Of a DNA stretch of 36,193 bases, positions 8,596-29,011 are shown piece by piece. Location: contig JAPLJI010000080.1 of the NCBI GenBank assembly GCA_026388655.1, positions 1-36,193 on the forward strand, written 5' to 3'. The position numbers were made by a program, and so were the translations under genes. Origin of the DNA: Pseudomonadota bacterium (lineage in GTDB: Bacteria > Desulfobacterota > JAPLJL01). Position 1 is the first letter of the stretch; every line of letters starts with the position of its first letter. Under the pieces are notes generated by a model. The model saw only the letters and a program-made list of their open reading frames with translations, ran no database searches and had not been told where the DNA came from.

Positions 8596-8827
8596 AATGT
8601 CAAAGTTCAAAATCCAAATGACAAAATAATGCCAAAGTTCCAAGTTCAAAGTTCAAATGACCCCCCCAAAAACCCAAAAGCAAAATCAGATTTGTTATTT
8701 TTTTGTTTTTTAAACTTTATTTAAACTTTGGATTTAAGCATTTGAACTTTTATTTTAGGTGTTTATTTGGCATTTGAACTTCTATTTTGGACATTTATTT
8801 GACATTTGAGCTTTGAACTTTGACATT
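8596..8827. repeat. AAAGTTCAAA-type repeat array with long inverted ends
   Basis: The mtnP-gatB gap is made of short A/T-rich words such as CAAAGTTCAAATG and TTTGAACTTT. The first 16 bases (AATGTCAAAGTTCAAA) and the last 16 (8812-8827) are perfect inverse complements, so the whole spacer can fold as one long hairpin immediately before the gatB start. Related arrays occur at 16595-16715, 19741-19800 and 28213-28240. Confidence 0.75.
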
Positions 8828-8834
8828 TAATAAT

Positions 8835-10280
8835 ATGAACGATCACACTTTTGAGTCCGTCATCGGCCTCGAGGTCCACGCCCAGCTCCTGACCCAGTCC
8901 AAAATTTTCTGCGGCTGTTCGACCCGGTTCGGGGACAAGCCGAACAGCCATACCTGCCCGGTCTGCCTGGGGATGCCGGGGGTTCTGCCGGTAATCAACC
9001 GGCTGGTCGTGGAGTACGGGGTCATGACCGCCCTGGCCCTGCATTGCGAGGAAGTCCCCCCCCGCTCGATCTTCGCCCGGAAGAACTACTTTTACCCGGA
9101 CCTGCCCAAGGGCTACCAGATCTCCCAGTATGAGTCGCCCCTGGCGCTCCGGGGTTATCTCGAGATCCCCGCGGGCGAGAACCGGCTCAGGAAGATCGGG
9201 ATCACCCGGGTTCACCTGGAGGAAGACGCCGGCAAGCTGGTCCACGGAGAGGGCCCGGAGTCCGAATCCAGCTTCGTGGACTTGAACCGCGCCGGCGTGC
9301 CCCTGATGGAGATCGTCTCCGAGCCGGATCTCCGGACCCCGGAGGAGGCGGGGGAGTATCTCCGCCGCCTGACCGCGATCCTGGTTTACCTGGGGGTCTG
9401 CGACGGCAAAATGGAGGAGGGGTCCCTGCGCTGCGACGCCAACGTTTCCATCCGCCGCCGGGGGGAAACCGCCCTGGGGGTCAAGACCGAGCTCAAGAAC
9501 ATGAACTCTTTCAAGAACGTGGAAAAGGCCCTGGCGAAAGAGATCGAAAGGCAGATCGAGCTCGTCTCGAAGGGGAAAAAGGTGGTCCAGGAGACCCTGC
9601 TCTGGGATCCCGATAATGAAGTCACCCTGTCGATGCGGGGCAAGGAAGAAGCCCACGATTAGCGCTATTTCCCCGAGCCGGATCTTCTCCCCCTGGTCCT
9701 GGAGCAGGACTGGGTGGAAAAAATCAGGGGGAGAATCCCGGAGCTTCCCCAGGAAAAGGCGGATCGCTTCGTCCGGGATCTGGGCCTGACCCGATATGAC
9801 GCCGAGGTTCTGGTGGCCGCCAAACCCATCTCCGATTATTTTGATGAAACCGTCAAGATCCATCCGGAGCCCAAGAGGGTGAGCAACTGGGTGACCGGGG
9901 ATTTCTTGAGAATTTACTGGGCGGAGGGCGGCGGCCCCGTCAAGATGCTTCCGCAAAACCTGGCGCGGATAATCAAGATGGTGGACGAGGGAAAAATTTC
10001 CGGGCTGATCGGAAAGAAGGTGCTCGAGGAGTCATATAAGACGGGCCAGGACCCGGAGGCGATCGTCCGAGAACAGGGCCTGGCCCAGGTCTCGGACGAG
10101 TCCGAGCTTGAAAAGATCATTGACGCGGTGATCAATGAAAATCCCCAGGAAGTCAAAAGGTTCCAGGCTGGGGAGGAAAAACTTCAGCAGTTTCTGACCG
10201 GTCAGGTGATGAAGAAGAGCAAGGGCAAGGCCAACCCCAAGCGGGTGGGCAAGCTCCTCAAATCCCGCCTCGGCAAATAG
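8835..10280 (+). pseudogene. gatB: Asp/Glu-tRNA(Asn/Gln) amidotransferase subunit B, interrupted by one in-frame TAG
   Basis: The reading frame covers the whole GatB family length, 481 codons. The N-terminal catalytic-core part is clear: [44 protein letters not shown], and [12 protein letters not shown]-like motifs. The C-terminal GatB/YqeY helical domain ends ...GKLLKSRLGK. Codon 276 (9660-9662) is TAG where the family has tyrosine in HDYRYFPEPDL; the frame continues without shift as RYFPEPDLLPL. Only one base differs from a TAT or TAC tyrosine codon. TAG also ends mtnP, korB, nrdJ and mutS2 here, so general recoding is unlikely. The cause could be a sequencing or assembly error, a strain-level nonsense mutation, or read-through. 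ATG 8835 lacks a visible Shine-Dalgarno site and abuts the repeat array. Confidence 0.9.
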
Positions 10281-19804: not shown

Positions 19805-20938
19805 TTATTTCCGGGTGGTCAGCTTTTCCAGGGTCTCAAAGAACTGCTGGATCTCGGCCTGGGAATTGTAGAAGTGCGGGGACAGCCGCAAGGCATTGCC
19901 CCGGACTGCGGTCACGATCTTTTCGGTTAAAAGCTTGCGGTGGACGAACTTGGGATCCGGCACCTTGAGGCTCACGATCCCGGAGCGTTCCCCTTTACCC
20001 CAGGGGGAGAGCACCGGGATCTCGCGTTCCGTGGCTTCCTGGTAGATATAGTTGGTCAGGGTGAGGATCCGCTCGTAAATCGCCTCGATTCCGATTTCAA
20101 TCAGCAGGTCGAGGGCGGACCCGAGGGCGAAGATCCCGATTATGTTCAGACTCCCGCCCTCGAAGCGGGCGGCGTCGGAGCGGAGGGTGAAATCAATCCG
20201 GTCGAACTCCCGGGGCTTGACCACGCTTTTCCAGCCGACCGAGACCGGCTTGAGCAGTTCGAGATTTTCCCGGCGGCAGTAAAAAATCGCCACCCCCTCC
20301 GGGGCCAGCATCCACTTGTGGCCGTCGGCGGCGAGAAAGTCGATTTTTTCGTCGCGGACATCCAGGGGGATCGCCCCCACGCTCTGGATCCCGTCCACGC
20401 AGAAGAGAATGCCCCGTTCCCGGCAGATCTTCCCGATCTTTTCCAGGTTGGCCCGGAAGCCGTTCTGGTACTGGACCGAGGAAAGGGCGACTAGGCGGGT
20501 GCGGGGATCGAGCTGGGATTCGATCATCTCCGGGGTGATCCGGCCGTCCGAGGCGGAGATGATTTTCAACTCCACGCCGATTTCCTTCAGGTTCATCCAG
20601 GGGTAAACATTGGAGGGAAACTCCAGGTCGTTGATGATGACCTTGTCTTCCGGGAACCAGTTGAGGCCCGCGGCCACCCAGGAAAGGGCCTCGGAGGTAT
20701 TCTTGGCGAAAGCGATTTCATCCGGGTGGGCCCCGATCAGGCAGGCGGCCTGATCGCGGACCCTTTCCACCTCCTGGTCAAACTCCTGGGTGAAGATGCC
20801 CCCGCCCTCGCAGGCCCGCTGGAGGAATCCTTCCACCGCTCCCACCACCCGGGTGGAGAGGGGAGCCACCCCGGCGTGGTCGAGGTAAATCAGCTCGTCA
20901 ACGACGGGGAAATATTTCCGGACTTCTTCGATGTTCAT
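19805..20938 (-). CDS. Class V aminotransferase / cysteine-desulfurase-like PLP enzyme
   Basis: The 377-residue fold-type I PLP enzyme starts YLDHAGVAPLSTRVV, then AFAKNTSEALSWVAAGLNW (cofactor-phosphate loop). ALSSVQYQNGFRANLEKIG, CVDGIQSVGAIPLDV (the aspartate pairing with the PLP ring) and AADGHKWMLAPEGVA, with the Schiff-base lysine, follow. It is of the SufS/isopenicillin-N-epimerase-like group. I see no clear catalytic-loop cysteine near the C-terminus as in desulfurases, so a transaminase, lyase or epimerase role is possible; the substrate is unknown. Its ATG (20938) lies 41 bp inside the 3' end of the preceding barrel-protein gene, so translation is probably coupled, though a functional link is not obvious. 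Confidence 0.85.
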   Translation of the reverse strand: MNIEEVRKYFPVVDELIYLDHAGVAPLSTRVVGAVEGFLQRACEGGGIFTQEFDQEVERVRDQAACLIGAHPDEIAFAKNTSEALSWVAAGLNWFPEDKVIINDLEFPSNVYPWMNLKEIGVELKIISASDGRITPEMIESQLDPRTRLVALSSVQYQNGFRANLEKIGKICRERGILFCVDGIQSVGAIPLDVRDEKIDFLAADGHKWMLAPEGVAIFYCRRENLELLKPVSVGWKSVVKPREFDRIDFTLRSDAARFEGGSLNIIGIFALGSALDLLIEIGIEAIYERILTLTNYIYQEATEREIPVLSPWGKGERSGIVSLKVPDPKFVHRKLLTEKIVTAVRGNALRLSPHFYNSQAEIQQFFETLEKLTTRK

Positions 20939-23915
20939 AGCCGAGGTTCCAGAGTTCGTAATTCATTGTAGCATAAAATTGGGTTTCCCCGTCCCGGTTC
21001 AACCCTCGGGCGAAAGAAAATTGGAAAAGAACTGGGATTGCGTACCCCAGGGTGGTTTTCAGGTTGAGGGAGCCCCCCACCCCGACCCGAAAGGAATGCA
21101 GTTCGTAGAGATCGGCCCCGGAAAGCCCGAGATCCGAGAAAACCGAAGCGTAAACCAGGTTGAGGTAGACCGGCAGGGTGGAAAGGCCGCGTTCGATGAC
21201 CCAGGGCATGGTTTTCAGATTGAGGCCGACCAGCACGGCATATTTGGCGGAGAGGTCAGGATAGCCCCGCGGGTAAAGCTGGTAGGAGCTGTCAGGTTGG
21301 TAGCCGATACCGGCCCGAAGGGAAGCCGCGGCCCGGGCGGGGAGGGGAAAAAAGAGAATTTCGTCCGCCCGGAAACGGTTGATGTTAACCTCGCTTCCCA
21401 GGGCCCGCAGGGTGTTTTCCATCCCGAAGATAACCCATTGGCCCTGAACGGTTCCCGGGGAAAGGGGAAAAGCCTGGGTAGAGTCGTAGATAAAGGTAAC
21501 CTCCGGCCCCAGGAGCCAGAGGGGTTGGGGTTTTTCCCCGGAGGGCAGGACGGAAAGTGGTTTTTTATAGGTTTGATTGAAGGCGAGTTCAAACGCCGCC
21601 GATTTTTGATATGAAAGAAAGGGAAAAATAGCCGCCGCCCGGCTTTTCTGGGAATGCAGCCAGAAAAAGCGCCGGGATTCACCCTGCCCCCATTCCTCCG
21701 GAAGGTAATCCAGGGAAGCGGAAAGGGAAAACCGGGGATAAAAGGAATCTTCTTCGTAATAGATGTATCCTCCCGCCCGCTTCGCCCCCGAGTGGTAGAA
21801 AGGATTCAGGATATAAAGATGCCTGCCCAGGACATCCCGGGCGCCGGTGATGATTCCCGCGGCCATCCCTCGCCATTCCCCGCTGGTTTGGAAGAACGAG
21901 AAGAACGGGATCCAGAAGCGGGGAATGAGACTGGACCAGGGGGAGTATTTGACTGGTGAACTAATGGATGGTGTACAACCTTGTTTTATGTTGTTTCCTA
22001 TGCCGTCATTCCCGTCCCGCATCAGAGTACGGGATAAACTCCAGCGGGAATCCAGTCCGGAAGAGATGGATTCCCCCGTATCAAGTACGGGGCAGGCTCG
22101 GTCAAGCCCGGAATGACAATCAAAAGAAAGAGATTTTTGATGTAATTCGGTTTGGTAATTGCCCCTCTGGGGTTCTTGTTCTGAGATCCCATTCGGGGTC
22201 GAGGGAGAATTTGGTAATTGGTCATTGGTATTTTCGGTTTGGACCGGCTGCCATTTTTCCGGCTCGCAGGGAATGGTAAAAAGATCGAACCCCGAGGCCC
22301 CGTAGCCGGAAAAAAGGATTTCTTTTCCGTCCGGGGAGACGGCGGGGGCGAAGGCCCCGGTTTCGAGATTGGTGACCTGACGGAAATTTTTCCCGGCCGG
22401 GGAATAAGCATAAATATTGTATTTTCCGTTTCGGCTGGAGGAGAAAACGATCTCTTTCCCGTCCGGTGACCAGGTCGGGGAGATATCATCCCCGGGATCG
22501 GAGGTCAGGCGTTCGAGGTTCCGGGTAGAAAGGTCCAGGAGGTAGAGATCCAGGTTCCCGGAGGAATCGGCCGCGGAGAAGACGAGGTTTTTCCCGTCGG
22601 GGGAGAAACGGGGCTCGAAGGCGAAGGGGAGCTCCGCGGTTCCGGACCAGACGGTTTCAGGGTTATCCCCCTCCCCATCGAGCAGGACGATCTCGCTCCG
22701 TCCGGGTTTAAGGCGCGTGGCCGCGATTGAGTCTCGGACCGGGGAATAATCGGGATAGGTCAAATGCCGGCCGCGGGTGAGACGGACCAGGCGTTTCTCC
22801 TCCAGGTCGAATCGGTAGAGGTCGGAAACGATCTCGGTTTTCCAGTTGATTTCCTCCTGGGCGAAGATCAGGGATTTTCCCTCCGGGCCGAAGGCCAGGG
22901 TGGCCCCGGAGTTGCGGAGGACCAGCTTTCGCGGGGAAGAAGGTTGCGCGCTCGAAACAGAAAAAATGCCCGGGTATTCGCGAGGGGTTTCCCGGGTGTA
23001 AACGATCTCCCGGCCCGAAGGGGAGTATCTTCCCCCGTAAGTGAATTCGTGAGAGGCAGTGAGGGGCCGGGGCTCCGGAGTCTCATCCGTGGAAACCCCC
23101 GGAGGCGGGGATTCGGCCTGGAGGGATTTCTCCCATTCCCGCCAGAGGGCGGGATAGTTTTTCCCCAGGATATTTTTTGAGTTCAGGCTGATCAAAAAAG
23201 GCAAAATCATTCGGGAGTGGGAGATCTCGAGCCGGTAAGGAACTTCCGCTCCGTAGGTTTCGCTGAGGTAGCGGTAGAACCCCGATCCGAAGATGTAGGG
23301 GTATTTGCCGCCCGGCCAGCTGGCCAGGACCCCGCTGCCCCGGTCAATCGCGGGGAAGCGTTTTTCCCGCGCTGCGGTTTGGAGCAGGAGGTCCGAGAAG
23401 GGATGCCGGCCCCGGCCCTTGCCGCCCAGCTCGGTCTCGGCGTGGGCGGCGATCCCCTCGATGAGCCAGGTGGGTTCCACGGAGTTGGGGAAGATCACCC
23501 GGCCGAAGATTTTCCGAAAGACCGCGGGCACCCCGCGGGCCTGGTCCAGGTGGAGGATGTGGGTGTATTCGTGCAGGATGAGCGTGTAAAGCCAGTCCCG
23601 GTAGGCGAGGAAGGATTCTACCGGCGGAGGGGCGGGATAGAGCTCGATCGTGTTCAGGGGAAAGGGGGTGGCCAGGCCGTTGGAGATGTCGGTATGGGTG
23701 GTGAGGACGATCTGGGTTTTTCCCGGGGGTGAGTACTGGAGCAGGGGGGAGAGGCGCCGGTGGACGTCTTCGGCGATCCCGGCGATTTCGGTAGCCAGGT
23801 TTTCCTGTCCGGCGGGGAAGTTGACCACGAAATGCCCGGTTTCCAGGCGGTAAAATTTCTGGCCGGGCGGGACGGCGAGCAGGGACAGGAGCAGATAAAA
23901 AATTAACGGATTCAT
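20898..23915 (-). CDS. Large surface protein: zincin-like domain + TolB-type propeller + outer-membrane barrel, with an inserted repeat
   Basis: The 1005-residue protein has a signal peptide (MNPLIFYLLLSLLAVPPG). A gluzincin-like domain carries HEYTH (His115-His119) and WLIEGIAAHAE (Glu153). About five PD40 propeller repeats follow (about 280-550: RYSPSGREIVYTR, FSPDGKNLVFSA, WSPDGKEIVFSS, VSPDGKEILFSG). A C-terminal region of about 350 residues has alternating aromatic strands typical of an outer-membrane barrel. A linker at about 560-652 is made of translated repeat DNA, including a 113-bp GTCATTCC element. I prefer ATG 23915 for the signal peptide; GTG 23939 adds eight residues. Its role could be outer-membrane peptidase or assembly; unknown. 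It overlaps the aminotransferase gene downstream. Confidence 0.85.
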   Translation of the reverse strand: MNPLIFYLLLSLLAVPPGQKFYRLETGHFVVNFPAGQENLATEIAGIAEDVHRRLSPLLQYSPPGKTQIVLTTHTDISNGLATPFPLNTIELYPAPPPVESFLAYRDWLYTLILHEYTHILHLDQARGVPAVFRKIFGRVIFPNSVEPTWLIEGIAAHAETELGGKGRGRHPFSDLLLQTAAREKRFPAIDRGSGVLASWPGGKYPYIFGSGFYRYLSETYGAEVPYRLEISHSRMILPFLISLNSKNILGKNYPALWREWEKSLQAESPPPGVSTDETPEPRPLTASHEFTYGGRYSPSGREIVYTRETPREYPGIFSVSSAQPSSPRKLVLRNSGATLAFGPEGKSLIFAQEEINWKTEIVSDLYRFDLEEKRLVRLTRGRHLTYPDYSPVRDSIAATRLKPGRSEIVLLDGEGDNPETVWSGTAELPFAFEPRFSPDGKNLVFSAADSSGNLDLYLLDLSTRNLERLTSDPGDDISPTWSPDGKEIVFSSSRNGKYNIYAYSPAGKNFRQVTNLETGAFAPAVSPDGKEILFSGYGASGFDLFTIPCEPEKWQPVQTENTNDQLPNSPSTPNGISEQEPQRGNYQTELHQKSLSFDCHSGLDRACPVLDTGESISSGLDSRWSLSRTLMRDGNDGIGNNIKQGCTPSISSPVKYSPWSSLIPRFWIPFFSFFQTSGEWRGMAAGIITGARDVLGRHLYILNPFYHSGAKRAGGYIYYEEDSFYPRFSLSASLDYLPEEWGQGESRRFFWLHSQKSRAAAIFPFLSYQKSAAFELAFNQTYKKPLSVLPSGEKPQPLWLLGPEVTFIYDSTQAFPLSPGTVQGQWVIFGMENTLRALGSEVNINRFRADEILFFPLPARAAASLRAGIGYQPDSSYQLYPRGYPDLSAKYAVLVGLNLKTMPWVIERGLSTLPVYLNLVYASVFSDLGLSGADLYELHSFRVGVGGSLNLKTTLGYAIPVLFQFSFARGLNRDGETQFYATMNYELWNLGYEHRRSPEIFPRR
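22005..22117. repeat. GTCATTCC...GGAATGAC palindromic element inside a coding sequence
   Basis: A 113-bp element bounded by GTCATTCC and its inverse GGAATGAC, with internal inverted arms. It is translated in frame on the minus strand as CHSGLDRACPVLDTG... and lies in the linker between propeller and barrel of the large surface protein. A relative without coding potential lies at 27302-27458, and a half-copy near 7470. Adjacent bases (about 22150-22235) contain TTGGTAATTGGTCATTGG-type repeat words, also translated. Confidence 0.8.
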
Positions 23916-23949
23916 CTCAACAATTTTACCCTCTCCCACTCATTCCAGG

Positions 23950-24407
23950 GTGAGTTTTTTCAGTTTAACCCTCTCCCCTTGTGGGACTTGTCCTGAAGGC
24001 TCGTCCTGAAGGAGAGGGCTTGGGTGAGGGGTCAGTAACAACATGATTTTTCACCCTCCCCTCAATCCCCTCCCATCTAGGGAGGGGAGATGTTGTTTGG
24101 GAGAATCATTTCTTTATATTCCCCTCTCCCCGGTTAGCCCCCGAGTTTTACTCGGGGGGAAAGGGTTGGGGTGAGGGGGTGGAAATAACGGGTTAATTTG
24201 AACATTCATGATCCGAAATATATTTTCAACCGACCAGGGTTAATTCTATATTCAAAGTGGCGGTGAGGGTATAGATTTCCAATGATCATTTTTTTGTTTT
24301 GTATTTGCCTCATTTATGAGGCTCGTTGGAAGAAAAACCTCGTCGCCCGATCCTTCATGCTTCAGGACAAGTCCCTCCGCTGTCGGGATAAATAAATCGG
24401 GCAACTA
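23950..24407. repeat. Repeat-filled gap: CCCTCTCC arrays and a degenerate REP pair
   Basis: From about 23965 to 24185, three inverted-repeat blocks of the type CCCTCTCCCC...GGAGAGGG...GGGTGAGGG lie in a row; a shorter relative is at 34885-34940. From about 24300 to 24407 a degenerate REP pair runs from GTATTTGCCTCATTTATGAG to ATCGGGCAACTAT. It resembles the intact pair at 28319 (GTAGTTGCCCGATTTATCGG). I see no gene from 23940 to 24484. Confidence 0.65.
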
Positions 24408-24484
24408 TGACGACCGTTGGACACCATCTATAAACGCGATCATATAATTCGCTGAACGAATACCAGAACGGGAAGAATGCGAAT

Positions 24485-24513
24485 AAAAAAAGGGCCCCGT
24501 TTCCGGGGCCCTT
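24485..24513 (-). terminator. Rho-independent terminator after the HHH protein genes
   Basis: On the minus strand, AAGGGCCCCG pairs with CGGGGCCCTT around a short AAA-containing loop and is followed by a T run. It lies about 35 bp after the stop of the 24550 gene and should end the transcript of both helix-hairpin-helix genes. Confidence 0.9.
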
Positions 24514-24549
24514 GAAATCAATCCTGAAAATAGTAAAGCAAAATAACTA

Positions 24550-24966
24550 TTATTTGCCGGCCGGCTTCGCCGGAGCCGTAGCAGCGGGTGCCGCAGGCGG
24601 GGCCGGAGCCGTAGCAGCGGGTGCCGCAAGCGGGGCCGGAGCCGGGGCAGCAGGCTTAGCTGGAGCGGCCGGCTTTGCCGCGGTAGGCGGGGTCGGAGCT
24701 GGGGCCGCCGGAGCGGGTTCGGTCTTCGAGGCTTCGACCTTATTGGCGGCCGGGTTAAGGGTGGTTTTTCCTTCAATCACTACCTTGTCCTTGATTATGT
24801 GCCAGCAGGCCTTCCCGACCACCTTTTTAATGTCTTTAGGGGATTTAAAACGCACTTTTGCCCGCTCATTGAGAATGGCCTGGGCGGTTTTTTCCTCCAG
24901 ATTGAGGAGTTTCAACTCGTCCAGGGTGGCGGTATTTATATTCACGACTCCTTTCCAATTTTCCAT
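24550..24966 (-). CDS. Small helix-hairpin-helix protein with Ala/Pro-rich repeat tail
   Basis: The 138-residue protein has one ComEA-like helix-hairpin-helix domain (about 1-70: VVNINTATLDELKLLNLEEK, then AQAILNERAKVRFKSPKDIK). An Ala/Pro/Lys tail follows (about 85-138) with APAATAPAP repeats encoded by a 33-bp tandem repeat. ATG 24966 has AAGGAGGAAGTATC upstream; an in-frame start at 24990 would precede that site. No signal peptide is visible, unlike the paralogous protein encoded upstream at 25016-25669, which has the same VVNINTAT domain. The HHH fold in ComEA binds DNA non-specifically, but the role here is unknown. Both genes share strand and the terminator at 24485. Confidence 0.8.
   Translation of the reverse strand: MENWKGVVNINTATLDELKLLNLEEKTAQAILNERAKVRFKSPKDIKKVVGKACWHIIKDKVVIEGKTTLNPAANKVEASKTEPAPAAPAPTPPTAAKPAAPAKPAAPAPAPLAAPAATAPAPPAAPAATAPAKPAGK
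24569..24655. repeat. 33-bp tandem repeat in the HHH protein tail
   Basis: The unit starting GCCGGAGCCGTAGCAGCGGG occurs at 24569-24601 and 24602-24634 with one base change, followed by a partial third copy to about 24655. The unit is a multiple of three, so copy-number change alters only the length of the Ala/Pro tail. Confidence 0.85.
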
Positions 24967-25015
24967 GATACTTCCTCCTTCTTTTATCAAACAAGTTAAA
25001 TAACTGAAATTTTTA

Positions 25016-25669
25016 CTATTTATTTTTCCGAGCCGCTTCTTTCTTGTGAGTGGCTTTCTTCTTCTGAGCGGCTTTCTCGGCCGGCTTCATGGTGGTCTCG
25101 CCCGCAACCACGACTAGGTCCTTAATCTTTGCCAACTCCTTAACGGTGATTCCTTTTACCGCTTGGAGATCTTCCGCGGACTTGAATTCTCCCTTTTTGC
25201 GGTGGGCAATAATCGCCTTGGCCAGCTTTTTCGTAATCCCCGGGAGAAGACAGAGCTGCTCAGCGGTGGCGGTGTTGATGTTTACCACTTCCTTAGCCAC
25301 GGCGGGAGCCGGAGCTGCGGGAGCGGTAACACCCTGGGGAGCCGGAGGAATGATCTTGGAAAGATTAATATTTTGTTCTGTCAGGATTTTCCCGCCTTCA
25401 ACCAAGATCCCCATCAGCGGCTTCGAATCATAACCTTCCTTTTTAGCTTCCAGAGTATATTGGCCGGCCGGCACCCCGTTGATGGTATAAGTCCCGGAAT
25501 CATCAGTGGCGGTGGTCAGGGCGGTTCCCGCCACGGAAATAGTGATCCCGGCATTACCGGTCGCGGCGCCATCCAGGGTGGCTTTTCCTTCGATTGTGCC
25601 GGGTTTCTTCGCGCATGTAAAAGCCAGAGCTAATCCCAGAGCCAGAGAAACATACATAAACTTTTTCAT
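25016..25669 (-). CDS. Exported protein: carboxypeptidase-regulatory-like domain plus ComEA-like HHH
   Basis: The 217-residue protein starts with a signal peptide (MKKFMYVSLALGLALAFTCAKK), possibly a lipoprotein although AFTC is a weak lipobox. A carboxypeptidase-regulatory-like beta domain spans about 25-105 (GTIEGKATLDGAATGNAGIT, then DDSGTYTINGVPAGQYTLEA). An Ala/Pro linker leads to an HHH domain (about 125-190: VVNINTATAEQLCLLPGITK, then AIIAHRKKGEFKSAEDLQAV). The tail is Lys-rich (AQKKKATHKKEAARKNK). AGGAGGG lies eight bases before ATG 25669. The domain pair suggests an envelope-anchored DNA-binding or scaffold protein, perhaps linked to DNA uptake; no comEC or pil gene is nearby to support that. 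The downstream gene encodes a paralogous HHH domain. Confidence 0.8.
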   Translation of the reverse strand: MKKFMYVSLALGLALAFTCAKKPGTIEGKATLDGAATGNAGITISVAGTALTTATDDSGTYTINGVPAGQYTLEAKKEGYDSKPLMGILVEGGKILTEQNINLSKIIPPAPQGVTAPAAPAPAVAKEVVNINTATAEQLCLLPGITKKLAKAIIAHRKKGEFKSAEDLQAVKGITVKELAKIKDLVVVAGETTMKPAEKAAQKKKATHKKEAARKNK

Positions 25670-26082
25670 TTTTGAATCCCTCCTAAAAATTGGTTAATAA
25701 AACGTTAAACCACTAAAAAAATCCGGCGAAAATAAATATGATTTTTTCTCCCTAAGGCGGCCAGGCATTGCTGTGGTTTTCCACAATCTTCTTCATCTAC
25801 CTTTCACTCCGATCCAAAATTGTCAAAGAAATAATGTCCTTGAATTTTTTCGGAGAAACTAAAGACTATTCCGACTATAAACGCGACCAAAATGGCTATA
25901 ATATTTCAAGCCATTTGCCTTTTGATTTCGATTCTTTTCTTTTAATTAAATGCCAAGAGTATGTTTATTCTTAATGGCATCATAAAAGATAATCCAATTT
26001 CGAATGTATGCCCTATTTTATTTCCGGAATCTATTCCCTTCATAGCGTTCTTAGTCCTTATCTGCCATTTACCCGATCAATT
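25670..26082. other. AT-rich spacer without a convincing gene
   Basis: This stretch is clearly AT-richer than its surroundings. Two short + strand frames (about 68 and 97 codons) cross it, but neither has a ribosome-binding site or a recognisable family, and the second runs antisense through the terminator and the 61-aa gene. A GTGGTTTTCCAC palindrome lies near 25771. I see nothing else. Confidence 0.5.
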
Positions 26083-26130
26083 AAAAAGTCGAGCGTGTAG
26101 GGTCAGTTTCGAATCTGGCCTCACACGCTC
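26083..26130 (-). terminator. Rho-independent terminator after the Pro/Gln-rich peptide gene
   Basis: A stem of about 16 bp with small mismatches pairs GAGCGTGTAGGGTCAG (26091-26106) with CTGGCCTCACACGCTC (26115-26130). On the minus strand it is followed by GAC and five T (26087-26083). It lies about a dozen bases after the stop codon of the 26143 gene. Confidence 0.85.
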
Positions 26131-26142
26131 TTGGTTTGCCTA

Positions 26143-26328
26143 TTACTTCTGCGGATTTGGCGTAATAGGTTGCTGCTCTGGTTTTTGCTGCGGTGAAGAT
26201 GGCTGCTTGGGCGATGGGTTTGGTTCAGGGTTGCCAGTAGGATTTTGCGGTTGATCTGATTTCCATTGAAGGGGAGCAGATTTAGGAGGCTGAGAACGAT
26301 TTTTATTACCGGTTTTCAAATTAGCCAT
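26143..26328 (-). CDS. Small Pro/Gln/Asn-rich protein, unknown function
   Basis: A 61-residue protein, MANLKTGNKNRSQPPKSAPL followed by a tail rich in Pro, Gln, Asn and Lys (QPQNPTGNPEPNPSPKQPSS). It has no hydrophobic segment and looks intrinsically disordered. I believe it is real because AGAGGTGA lies about seven bases before the ATG. A promoter (TTGACA-N17-TATTTT) lies upstream and a strong terminator follows the stop. I recognise no family. It is transcribed divergently from the HTH-EIIA gene, and its leader contains two direct repeats. Its composition and the low GC of this islet differ from neighbours, consistent with separate origin. Confidence 0.65.
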   Translation of the reverse strand: MANLKTGNKNRSQPPKSAPLQWKSDQPQNPTGNPEPNPSPKQPSSPQQKPEQQPITPNPQK

Positions 26329-26344
26329 TATATATTCACCTCTC

Positions 26345-26376
26345 TTCTTTGTAAATTTGAGTAATTCTTTGTAAAT
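26345..26376. promoter_or_regulatory. Direct repeats, possible operator in the leader of the small-protein gene
   Basis: TTCTTTGTAAAT occurs at 26345-26356 and again at 26365-26376, exactly 20 bp apart (about two helical turns), between the minus-strand promoter and the start of the 61-aa gene. A regulator-binding site is a reasonable guess; the adjacent HTH-EIIA protein is the obvious candidate binder. Confidence 0.45.
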
Positions 26377-26388
26377 CTACGAACTTTA

Positions 26389-26453
26389 TTGACATCTAAT
26401 GTAAAAATAGGTAAAATAATTCAGTTTGTCAATAGGCATAGTTAGATTATAAT
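26389..26453. promoter_or_regulatory. Overlapping divergent promoters in the AT-rich islet
   Basis: On the + strand there are two good promoters: TTGACA (26389-26394) N17 TAAAAT (26412-26417), and TTGTCA (26426-26431) N16 TATAAT (26448-26453). On the minus strand TTGACA (26432-26427) N17 TATTTT (26409-26404) overlaps both. Polymerases firing in opposite directions would compete here. The + promoters serve the HTH-EIIA gene and the minus one serves the 61-aa gene. Confidence 0.65.
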
Positions 26454-26479
26454 TAATACCATCGTTATGGAAGTTTGAA

Positions 26480-27211
26480 GTGAAATCTATGGAAGATCGC
26501 CTAATGACGGTTAAGCAAATTTCCTCATACCTCAATGTCAACGAACGCACTATCCTCAAATTGGTTTCCGATGGGGTTCTTCCTGGTGTAAAGGTCGGGA
26601 ATCAATGGCGCTTTCGAAAGGCTATGATTGACACATGGCTGGACGATCAGATGCTTGGGGTTATACCCAGCCAACTGGACATCTTGGAATTCAACATATC
26701 TCCTCGTCAGATGCTCGAGCTTGCAAACTGCTTCCAGCCGGAGAACATCATCCCTGAACTCGTGGCTCAAACCAAGACCGCAGTCGTGGAAGAACTTGCT
26801 GCACATGCACACCGGCTGGGTCTAATCATCGATAAGACTTGGTTTGTCGGAGCACTCATCGAGCGAGAGAATATCCTGCCGAGTGCCATGGGTAACGGTA
26901 TCGCCTTCTTGCATACACTGCGTCGCCATCCGACAAAGATTTCCCGGCCATTTATGATACTCGGTCGATCTCGAAATGGAATTGATTTCGATTCACTAGA
27001 CGGTCAGCCTACCCACCTCTTTTTTGTGCTAGGCCTTAAATTCGAGGAATTACATCTTCCCTGGTTACATAAGTTAATGCAGATGTTTGCACAAGGTGAG
27101 GCGATTAAAAACCTGCTTGTAGCTCCTGATGCTGATGCTATCTATAAAACTCTTTGTAAGGCTGAACTCGATCTTCGGCCAGAGCCGAGGGTTGAGGTCC
27201 ACAAAGAATAG
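26480..27211 (+). CDS. HTH (excisionase/MerR-like) - PTS EIIA (type 2) fusion regulator
   Basis: The 243-residue protein has an N-terminal helix-turn-helix (about 8-58: MTVKQISSYLNVNERTILKL, then WRFRKAMIDTWL) of the excisionase type. A PTS_EIIA_2/IIANtr-like domain follows (about 72-225). GNGIAFLHTLRRHP retains the phospho-acceptor histidine (His145) in the usual GNGIAxxH context, so phosphotransfer is possible. GTG 26480 has GGAAG six bases upstream; ATG 26489 and ATG 26504 are alternatives. It probably senses PTS phosphorylation and binds DNA; targets are unknown. In E. coli ptsN (EIIANtr) is in the lptCAB-rpoN cluster. Here this gene lies beside lptC but on the opposite strand. The gene is AT-richer than its neighbours. 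Confidence 0.85.
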   Translation: MKSMEDRLMTVKQISSYLNVNERTILKLVSDGVLPGVKVGNQWRFRKAMIDTWLDDQMLGVIPSQLDILEFNISPRQMLELANCFQPENIIPELVAQTKTAVVEELAAHAHRLGLIIDKTWFVGALIERENILPSAMGNGIAFLHTLRRHPTKISRPFMILGRSRNGIDFDSLDGQPTHLFFVLGLKFEELHLPWLHKLMQMFAQGEAIKNLLVAPDADAIYKTLCKAELDLRPEPRVEVHKE

Positions 27212-27585
27212 GGAAAGCTATTAAGCGATAAAAACTCAACTCGTTGAATTATTATTGAACTTGTAATTCCCCTTGGTTTTGCCACGGGGTTACCTTATTT
27301 CGTCATTCCGCATCCCCAATCAAGTTGAGGACATGCTTGATGCGGCCTGCTCGAGCTGACGCTCGTGTCGGCTAGGGAATCCAGAATTTATTGAATGACG
27401 ACATCTGGATTCCCGTTCCCCGCTTAAGACCTGCGAGGACAAGTTTCACGGGAATGACGATGCGGATTCCTCCCGCCGCTGGGGGGGTGAAGAATCTTTC
27501 TTCCGATGAGGAAGTCAGAAGAACCAGATCCTTCGCTGGTGCTCAGGATGACATTATGAGCGTTTTACAATGGTTTCCGTAAAAG
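27212..27585. repeat. GTCATTCC and GAAGAATCT repeats filling the gap before lptC
   Basis: A GTCATTCC...GGAATGAC element spans 27302-27458, relative of the one inside the surface-protein gene. A GAAGAATCT-family copy spans about 27489-27575, containing GAAGAACCAGATCCTTCGC, CTCAGGATGACATT and the TTTTACAATGGTTTC tail. No gene is visible. Confidence 0.7.
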
Positions 27586-28471: not shown

Positions 28472-29011
28472 TTAGGTGCGGCGCTTTTTCCGCCGGGAGA
28501 GACGGGGTTCGGATAATTCGCGCAAAATCAGCTCCGCGATCTCGCGGACGGCTCCCTCTCCTCCCCGCCGGCGGGAGGCATAAAGCGCGACCCGGGATAG
28601 CTCGGGAGGGCAGCCCCGGACGGTGAAAGGCAATCCCACCTTTTTTAGCAGGTCGAGGTCCGGGAGATCGTCACCCACGTAACCGACCTCCCGGTCTTCC
28701 AGTCTGAGCTTACGCTTCAGCTTTTCGTAGGCCGCGACTTTGTTGGCAACACCGGTTTGTACGATCTTGACCCCGAGTTCCCGAGCCCGCAGGGCCACCA
28801 GGGGGGATTTGCGGTTGCTGATAAATCCCACCGCGATCCCGGCTTCCTGCAGAAGCTTGATCCCCAGCCCATCGTGAACGTGAAAGCTTTTCAATTCAAA
28901 TCCCCCGGGGCCGAGGTAGATTTTTCCGTCGGTCAGGACTCCGTCCACATCCAGGAGTAGAAGGCGGAGGGCGGGGGTCCGGCGGGCGAGGGTTCGGGCC
29001 CGGCTGTTCAT
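28472..29011 (-). CDS. kdsC: 3-deoxy-D-manno-octulosonate 8-phosphate phosphatase (KdsC, HAD family)
   Basis: The 179-residue C0-type HAD phosphatase has the motif-1 nucleophile region LLLLDVDGVLTDGKIYL, then VGFISNRKSPLVALRARELG (motif 2) and VGYVGDDLPDLDLLKKVG (motif 4 metal ligands). These are KdsC hallmarks, and the tetrameric family has this short length. It dephosphorylates Kdo-8-phosphate to Kdo. Its ATG overlaps the kdsD stop by 4 bp (29008-29011), so the genes are translationally coupled. A Lys/Arg-rich C-terminal tail (LSRRKKRRT) is unusual but harmless. Confidence 0.93.
   Translation of the reverse strand: MNSRARTLARRTPALRLLLLDVDGVLTDGKIYLGPGGFELKSFHVHDGLGIKLLQEAGIAVGFISNRKSPLVALRARELGVKIVQTGVANKVAAYEKLKRKLRLEDREVGYVGDDLPDLDLLKKVGLPFTVRGCPPELSRVALYASRRRGGEGAVREIAELILRELSEPRLSRRKKRRT

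Follow-up and report, generated by a model that had tools for sequence, protein, structure and literature searches.

The window analysed here, a stretch of DNA of 36,193 nucleotides, carries a gene for an HTH_17-EIIA regulator (P0001) at 26489..27211 on the plus strand, with an ATG start as in its relatives and an alternative GTG at 26480. Divergent from it, at 26143..26328 on the minus strand, the ORF listing gives a candidate gene for a 61-aa Pro/Gln/Asn-rich protein (P0002), and the interval between the two holds a repeat array and several promoter-like sites. The HTH-EIIA fusion, read from the letters alone in a first-pass annotation, was borne out by Pfam, where HTH_17 (residues 8-57, E 1.9e-13) and PTS_EIIA_2 (residues 85-225, E 3.6e-25, 89.1 bits against a cut-off of 27) were the only domains of P0001 above cut-off, and no PRD domain was found. 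The winged HTH, with BldC as its nearest fold, is encoded at 26501..26650 (plus strand; Pfam and structure matches) and the EIIA-2 domain at 26732..27154 (plus strand; Pfam, PtsN alignment and structure matches). Among NCBIfam models, P0001 scored under the cut-offs of the PtsN equivalog TIGR01419 (50.7 bits against 138.7), of FruA and of the MADS defence protein MAD1 (NF047737, 58.4 bits against 80), and over that of the excisionase-family model TIGR01764 (54.2 against 28.8).

Alignment placed H142 of the regulator (counted from the ATG; residue 145 of P0001, codon 26912..26914, plus strand) on the PtsN histidine that we take to be the active one, and the roles of the arginine and the second histidine are likewise presumed. 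H142 would be the phospho-accepting residue, and together with R126 and H189 (ATG numbering) it was invariant in 10/10 proteins aligned. Of the intact phospho-histidine context initially described, the histidine stood but the context did not, as it reads FLH in the window protein versus IPH/PH in PtsN; in 10/10 proteins the residue preceding the active histidine is Leu or Met in place of the PtsN-type Pro, which gives FLH/FMH in the regulator family as against IPH. P0001 is single-copy in its own genome and the only EIIA-2 protein encoded there, and EI and HPr genes are present (G000:C171). The view that the regulator could respond to PTS phosphorylation is supported.

The predicted model of the HTH alone reached a pLDDT of 88, whereas the whole-protein model was poorer (pLDDT 74). 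In VIA-align the HTH model matched BldC best (6amk_A, Z 8.4, rmsd 1.5, 51 residues aligned; second 6ama_P, Z 8.3), followed by the HTHs of RdfS, Xis and terminases, where a Z of about 8 lies barely over the values produced by common arrangements. Foldseek with the same model returned nothing at E 0.001 or better, and the HTH sequence gave no meaningful match among PDB chains. For the EIIA part of the whole-protein model, PtsN and EIIA-Mtl were among the best PDB matches.

The repeat array and the promoters

Upstream of the regulator, at 26351..26420 on the plus strand, seven 10-bp direct repeats in a single register (GTAAATTTGA, GTAATTCTTT, GTAAATCTAC, GAACTTTATT, GACATCTAAT, GTAAAAATAG and GTAAAATAAT, in this order) make up a 70-bp putative operator with a unit of about GTAWTYTGAC, located with a held-out PWM. 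The motif was trained on the upstream regions of 11 non-redundant relatives, each ending at the conserved gene start; the window was excluded, and L069 and L070 were omitted as near-copies of L068. From these 11 upstreams the Gibbs sampler obtained a 10-bp head-to-tail unit with a score of 197.7, compared with a mean of 120.5 (sd 4.2, max 132.9) in 20 shuffles and a mean of 133.7 (max 150.5) in 20 trials with random 230-nt stretches of the same loci. When the search was run 8 wide, it gave 173.1 at period 10 and 109.0-117.1 at six alternative periods (8, 9, 11-14). Applied to the held-out window, the K=7 PWM gave 35.0 at 26351, the best site of the whole 36 kb, with shuffles at a mean of -8.8 (sd 6.0, max 10.1; 0/500 reach the observed score) and with scores below 0 at periods 8, 9, 11 and 12. 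Simple identity at lag 10, taken over 150 nt, was weak at several loci including the window (55/500 shuffles reach it) and was stronger over the best 70 nt (1/200 shuffles). In its strict version, three copies of GTAA spaced by 10-bp steps, the repeat is present at a single place in the 3.56-Mb genome, the window array.

Units 1-3 overlap two copies of TTCTTTGTAAAT (26345-26356 and 26365-26376, plus strand), and exact-match search confirmed that these, 20 bp apart as first reported, are exactly the two mismatch-free copies in the whole window. They had been assigned to the leader of the small ORF; the copies are present, but instead of being specific to that leader they belong to an operator that accompanies the regulator in different phyla.

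In leave-one-out scans the top-scoring array of each full locus (7.6-16 kb) lay 55-112 bp upstream of the regulator in 9/11 loci, with narrow margins for the L034/L039 pair (12.6 versus 10.2 for the next site in L034, 14.5 versus 12.4 in L039). At L032 and L037 the array occupies a short gap between a divergent membrane gene and the regulator, a geometry as in the window. The PWM scan of locus L038 found no array, and the array of L036 is on the opposite strand, 865 bp upstream of the regulator. This strong array (L036:5103-5152) lies between a Na+/H+ exchanger gene and an operon that ends with the regulator.

The three promoters within about 65 bp noted at first were all found again, and the first of them is conserved in the relatives. 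It is the candidate regulator promoter TTGACA-17-TAAAAT (26389..26417, plus strand, 11/12), which lies within the array. The second, TTGTCA-16-TATAAT (26426..26453, plus strand), also matches at 11/12 and is absent from the relatives; the third, TTGACA-17-TATTTT (26404..26432, minus strand, 10/12), points toward the 61-aa ORF. Of the 14 regulator genes, 11 have a TTG-N3-17-TA site upstream and 8 a stricter TTG pattern tied to the repeat (shuffle mean 0.05, max 1), a shuffle count that is optimistic since the pattern was devised after viewing the sequences. A GTCAA element at 26427-26432, about 39 nt after the start of the -35, is present upstream of 10 of the 14 regulators, and since the -35 of the minus-strand site doubles as this conserved element, the site argues only weakly for a second promoter. 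Another promoter-like match (26355-26327, minus strand) would be unable to serve the 61-aa ORF because its -10 runs into the ATG. Overall, the region has six sigma-70-like sites, a number that does not stand out from shuffles (mean 4.1, sd 2.3).

Judged from these sequences, the operator is conserved together with the regulator from Planctomycetota to Myxococcota. In most relatives the array overlies the promoter of the regulator itself, so autoregulation has the best support as a function, and in its own genome the regulator itself would be the sole target for which the sequence gives support, with the 61-aa ORF as a possible second.

Relatives, linked genes and origin of the block

Thirteen close relatives, about 60-70% identical to the window regulator, occur dispersed among Planctomycetota, Myxococcota, Proteobacteria and the phylum of the window itself; three further loci (L040-L042, 22-33% identity) were excluded from all close-relative counts. 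In 395 genomes of the phylum five matched at E 1e-25 or better, namely the own genome and four of family f59, whose regulators show 63-66% identity. The scan of genome contigs yielded 12 loci, nine of them at 62-70% identity and recorded as Planctomycetota (2), Myxococcales, Polyangiaceae, Deltaproteobacteria and Proteobacteria (4). In 9/9 relatives the HTH part was 76-86% identical to that of the window, compared with 60-68% for the whole protein. In a tree of the 14 regulators and three second-type HTH-EIIA proteins the 14 formed a single clade (100/100), and because the position of the window regulator inside this clade is unsettled, no donor is named.

The genes next to the relatives differ from locus to locus. 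A full-length gene for GTP-PEP carboxykinase (pckG) follows downstream of the regulator, on its strand, in 4/13 (L031, L033, L034, L039), and L036 has an N-terminal piece of it and a Na+/H+ exchanger gene nearby. Complex-I/Hyf-like membrane genes are on the divergent side in 4/13 (L032, L034, L035, L037) and a second HTH-EIIA gene in 3/13 (L031, L033, L034); the divergent neighbour is one of these, a pentapeptide protein or another gene. In L034:1-8736, Hyf-like genes, second HTH-EIIA, pentapeptide protein, array, regulator and pckG stand side by side. Within the stretches read at the four f59 loci, pckG, Hyf-like genes, second HTH-EIIA and exchanger were all absent.

The pckG of the window genome is located elsewhere and has no array. 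It is readable only across two frames (L076:8300-10004, query residues 4-91 and 80-571) and was consequently taken as frameshifted, either in the assembly or in the organism. PWM scans found no array before pckG genes away from the regulator (L072, L073, L074, L065 and the own L076), and pckG as a direct array target was rejected as a general rule, unlinked pckG genes being without an array.

The difference in composition from the surroundings that was described at first holds: GC3 is 0.49 for the regulator (GC 0.475) and 0.35 for the 61-aa ORF (GC 0.46), against 0.69-0.87 for most neighbouring genes. In the congener G002, 25/31 window ORFs are collinear on one contig with 70-95% identity, and a contiguous block of 3.6 kb (23940..27585), comprising two HhH ORFs, the small ORF and the regulator, is absent between the same two neighbours, which there lie less than 0.2 kb apart. 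The other congener (82% complete genome) gave no match to the HTH-EIIA protein. The block was either gained here or lost in G002, and gain is favoured because of the low GC3 and the scattered relatives. A phage or plasmid origin was rejected, as viral contigs held no relative of the regulator and plasmid matches were EIIA-level, all under 60% identity. A mis-binned contig was considered as KdsC and HTH-EIIA are unmatched in both congeners, and was rejected on SucC (84% identical in G002) and on collinearity.

The comparison with the congeners brought out several further features of the window. Neither congener has a match to KdsC (28472-29011), and in G002 the gene is lacking from its place between LptC and KdsD. 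The GatB-like gene at 8820-10280 is split as by a frameshift into ORFs 8820-9662 and 9714-10280, and DNA similarity to G002 is continuous through it. About 300 nt (21949-22248) inside ORF 20898-23939 are unaligned in the congener's copy of the gene, and 22043-22135 matches two other places on the G002 contig; a dispersed repeat seems to have entered this coding ORF in frame. Downstream of the regulator, 27254-27415 is a dispersed repeat with inverted GTCATTC arms, which resembles 9625-9731 of the G002 contig in two pieces (86-90%).

Proposed mode of action and its alternatives

Several known systems resemble parts of this arrangement. PRD-type PTS regulators such as MtlR and LevR control transcription in response to PTS phosphorylation via their PRD domains, which the regulator described here does not have. 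PtsN/EIIA-Ntr and EIIA-Mtl act by binding other proteins; the regulator shares their EIIA-2 fold and active-site residues, but has a DNA-binding domain built in and, before the histidine, Leu/Met where they have Pro. Streptomyces BldC, the top structural match of the HTH, is likewise an HTH_17-type winged HTH and binds head-to-tail on direct repeats one helical turn apart with the consensus AATTXXXX(C) (PMC5859096). At sequence level the operator here, with its period of 10, has the same layout, and by eye the unit compares with that consensus (T/A/W/T at positions 2-5, four bases, C at position 10), while repeat number and phase look more regular here. BldC consists of just the winged HTH and lacks an effector domain, unlike the EIIA-fused regulator. 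Lambda Xis and RdfS also share an HTH_17-like fold and head-to-tail filaments, but are recombination factors without EIIA (PMC11963761). Fusions of such domain make-up are already annotated, as for chlamydial PtsN_2, a table row in PMC5723314 that reads 'PTS IIA protein + HTH DNA-binding domain'; the likeness is one of annotation alone, and the passages of that source covered here gave no function or operator for PtsN_2. We found no study of the operator or binding mode of such a fusion in the open full-text literature. The regulator is neither BldC, having an extra domain, nor PtsN, being below the cut-off, and it probably grips DNA like BldC and senses like PtsN.

We consider it likely that P0001 is a PTS-phosphorelay-sensing regulator that acts through a BldC/Xis-like HTH on a phased array, is gated by its EIIA domain and controls its own promoter. 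The winged HTH would bind the 10-bp repeats with one protein per helical turn, probably assembling on the array as a cooperative head-to-tail filament. Motif and fold independently indicate one binding mode, an agreement that was not built in, and the modelled HTH probably has a BldC-like grip on DNA. EI and HPr would feed the EIIA domain, and phosphorylation of the active-site His145 (P0001 numbering) would alter assembly. As the array spans -35 to -10 of the regulator promoter, its occupancy would shut the promoter (autorepression), and it could also control the divergent side. The sign of control is a guess: the phosphorylated form, at high PEP, may be the repressor, as a product feedback, because high PEP would then limit the linked PEP carboxykinase of the relatives. 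What the computation shows is the fusion, an operator conserved across phyla, the promoter overlap, the BldC-like fold and the presence of EI and HPr; from there on we infer binding, filament, phosphorylation gating and sign. The case for the regulator and the operator is strong. More tentatively, the two may form a horizontally spread cassette in which an EIIA-gated HTH polymer couples the PEP/energy state to pckG and ion-translocating complexes, the local divergent gene being replaceable; such a class of PTS output was absent from the papers searched.

A simpler autoregulator or orphan, whose EIIA domain serves for structural dimerisation or as a decoy and is unphosphorylated here, seems unlikely to us. 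The FLH/FMH context, the status of P0001 as the only EIIA-2 protein of the genome and the single strict triple repeat would all suit it, but the arginine and both histidines are invariant in 10/10 relatives and the genome encodes EI and HPr.

The original proposal, a PTS-responsive switch serving a small disordered effector and acquired with it as a pair, we regard as improbable. In its favour, the 61-aa ORF begins with an ATG 23 bp from the array start and is preceded by an AGGTG-like ribosome site and by a promoter-like site that overlaps the array. The terminator ascribed to it is also there, a hairpin with T5 at 26084..26130 on the minus strand (-21.6 kcal/mol, z -3.6; 0/200 shuffles as stable) which a strict terminator scan missed, and both genes have low GC3 and are absent from the collinear region of G002. 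Against the pair, a search of 98 other genomes of the phylum turned up no relative of P0002, the best match being a low-complexity one at E 0.0069, and neither Pfam nor NCBIfam gave a match to it; with the own genome included, matches at E<=1 arose in 41/99 genomes and all were weak low-complexity matches except its own place. Moreover, its GC3 is unlike the host's, and among ORFs of at least 70-80 aa no common divergent small ORF was seen in the 13 relatives. The expected co-occurrence of the two genes was not supported, the ORF being unmatched in the 98 genomes and the divergent neighbour differing among the relatives; the regulator with its operator is supported, the two-gene unit is not. 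The 61-aa ORF may not be a gene, and a small effector is unsupported. A mobile-element origin of the HTH, as what is left of an excisionase or recombination factor with the array as its attachment or excision site, is very improbable, for the excisionase-model score, the RdfS and Xis matches and the lack of the block in G002 are outweighed by an EIIA fusion kept in 14 proteins, an array that coincides with the promoter in most relatives, metabolic linked genes and, by eye, no integrase recognised among the listed ORFs of the block.

In the autoregulatory reading that we prefer, the grip known from BldC, Xis and RdfS, filament-forming winged HTHs without a built-in sensor, would be combined with a phosphorylation sensor in one protein. 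With its operator defined to the base pair, the system offers a test of whether a reversible modification can open and close a nucleoprotein filament. It may also connect the PEP/pyruvate ratio directly to gene control in lineages where regulation has yet to be studied, and the presence of the repeats before relatives in very different bacteria suggests an unstudied tie of gene control to energy state.
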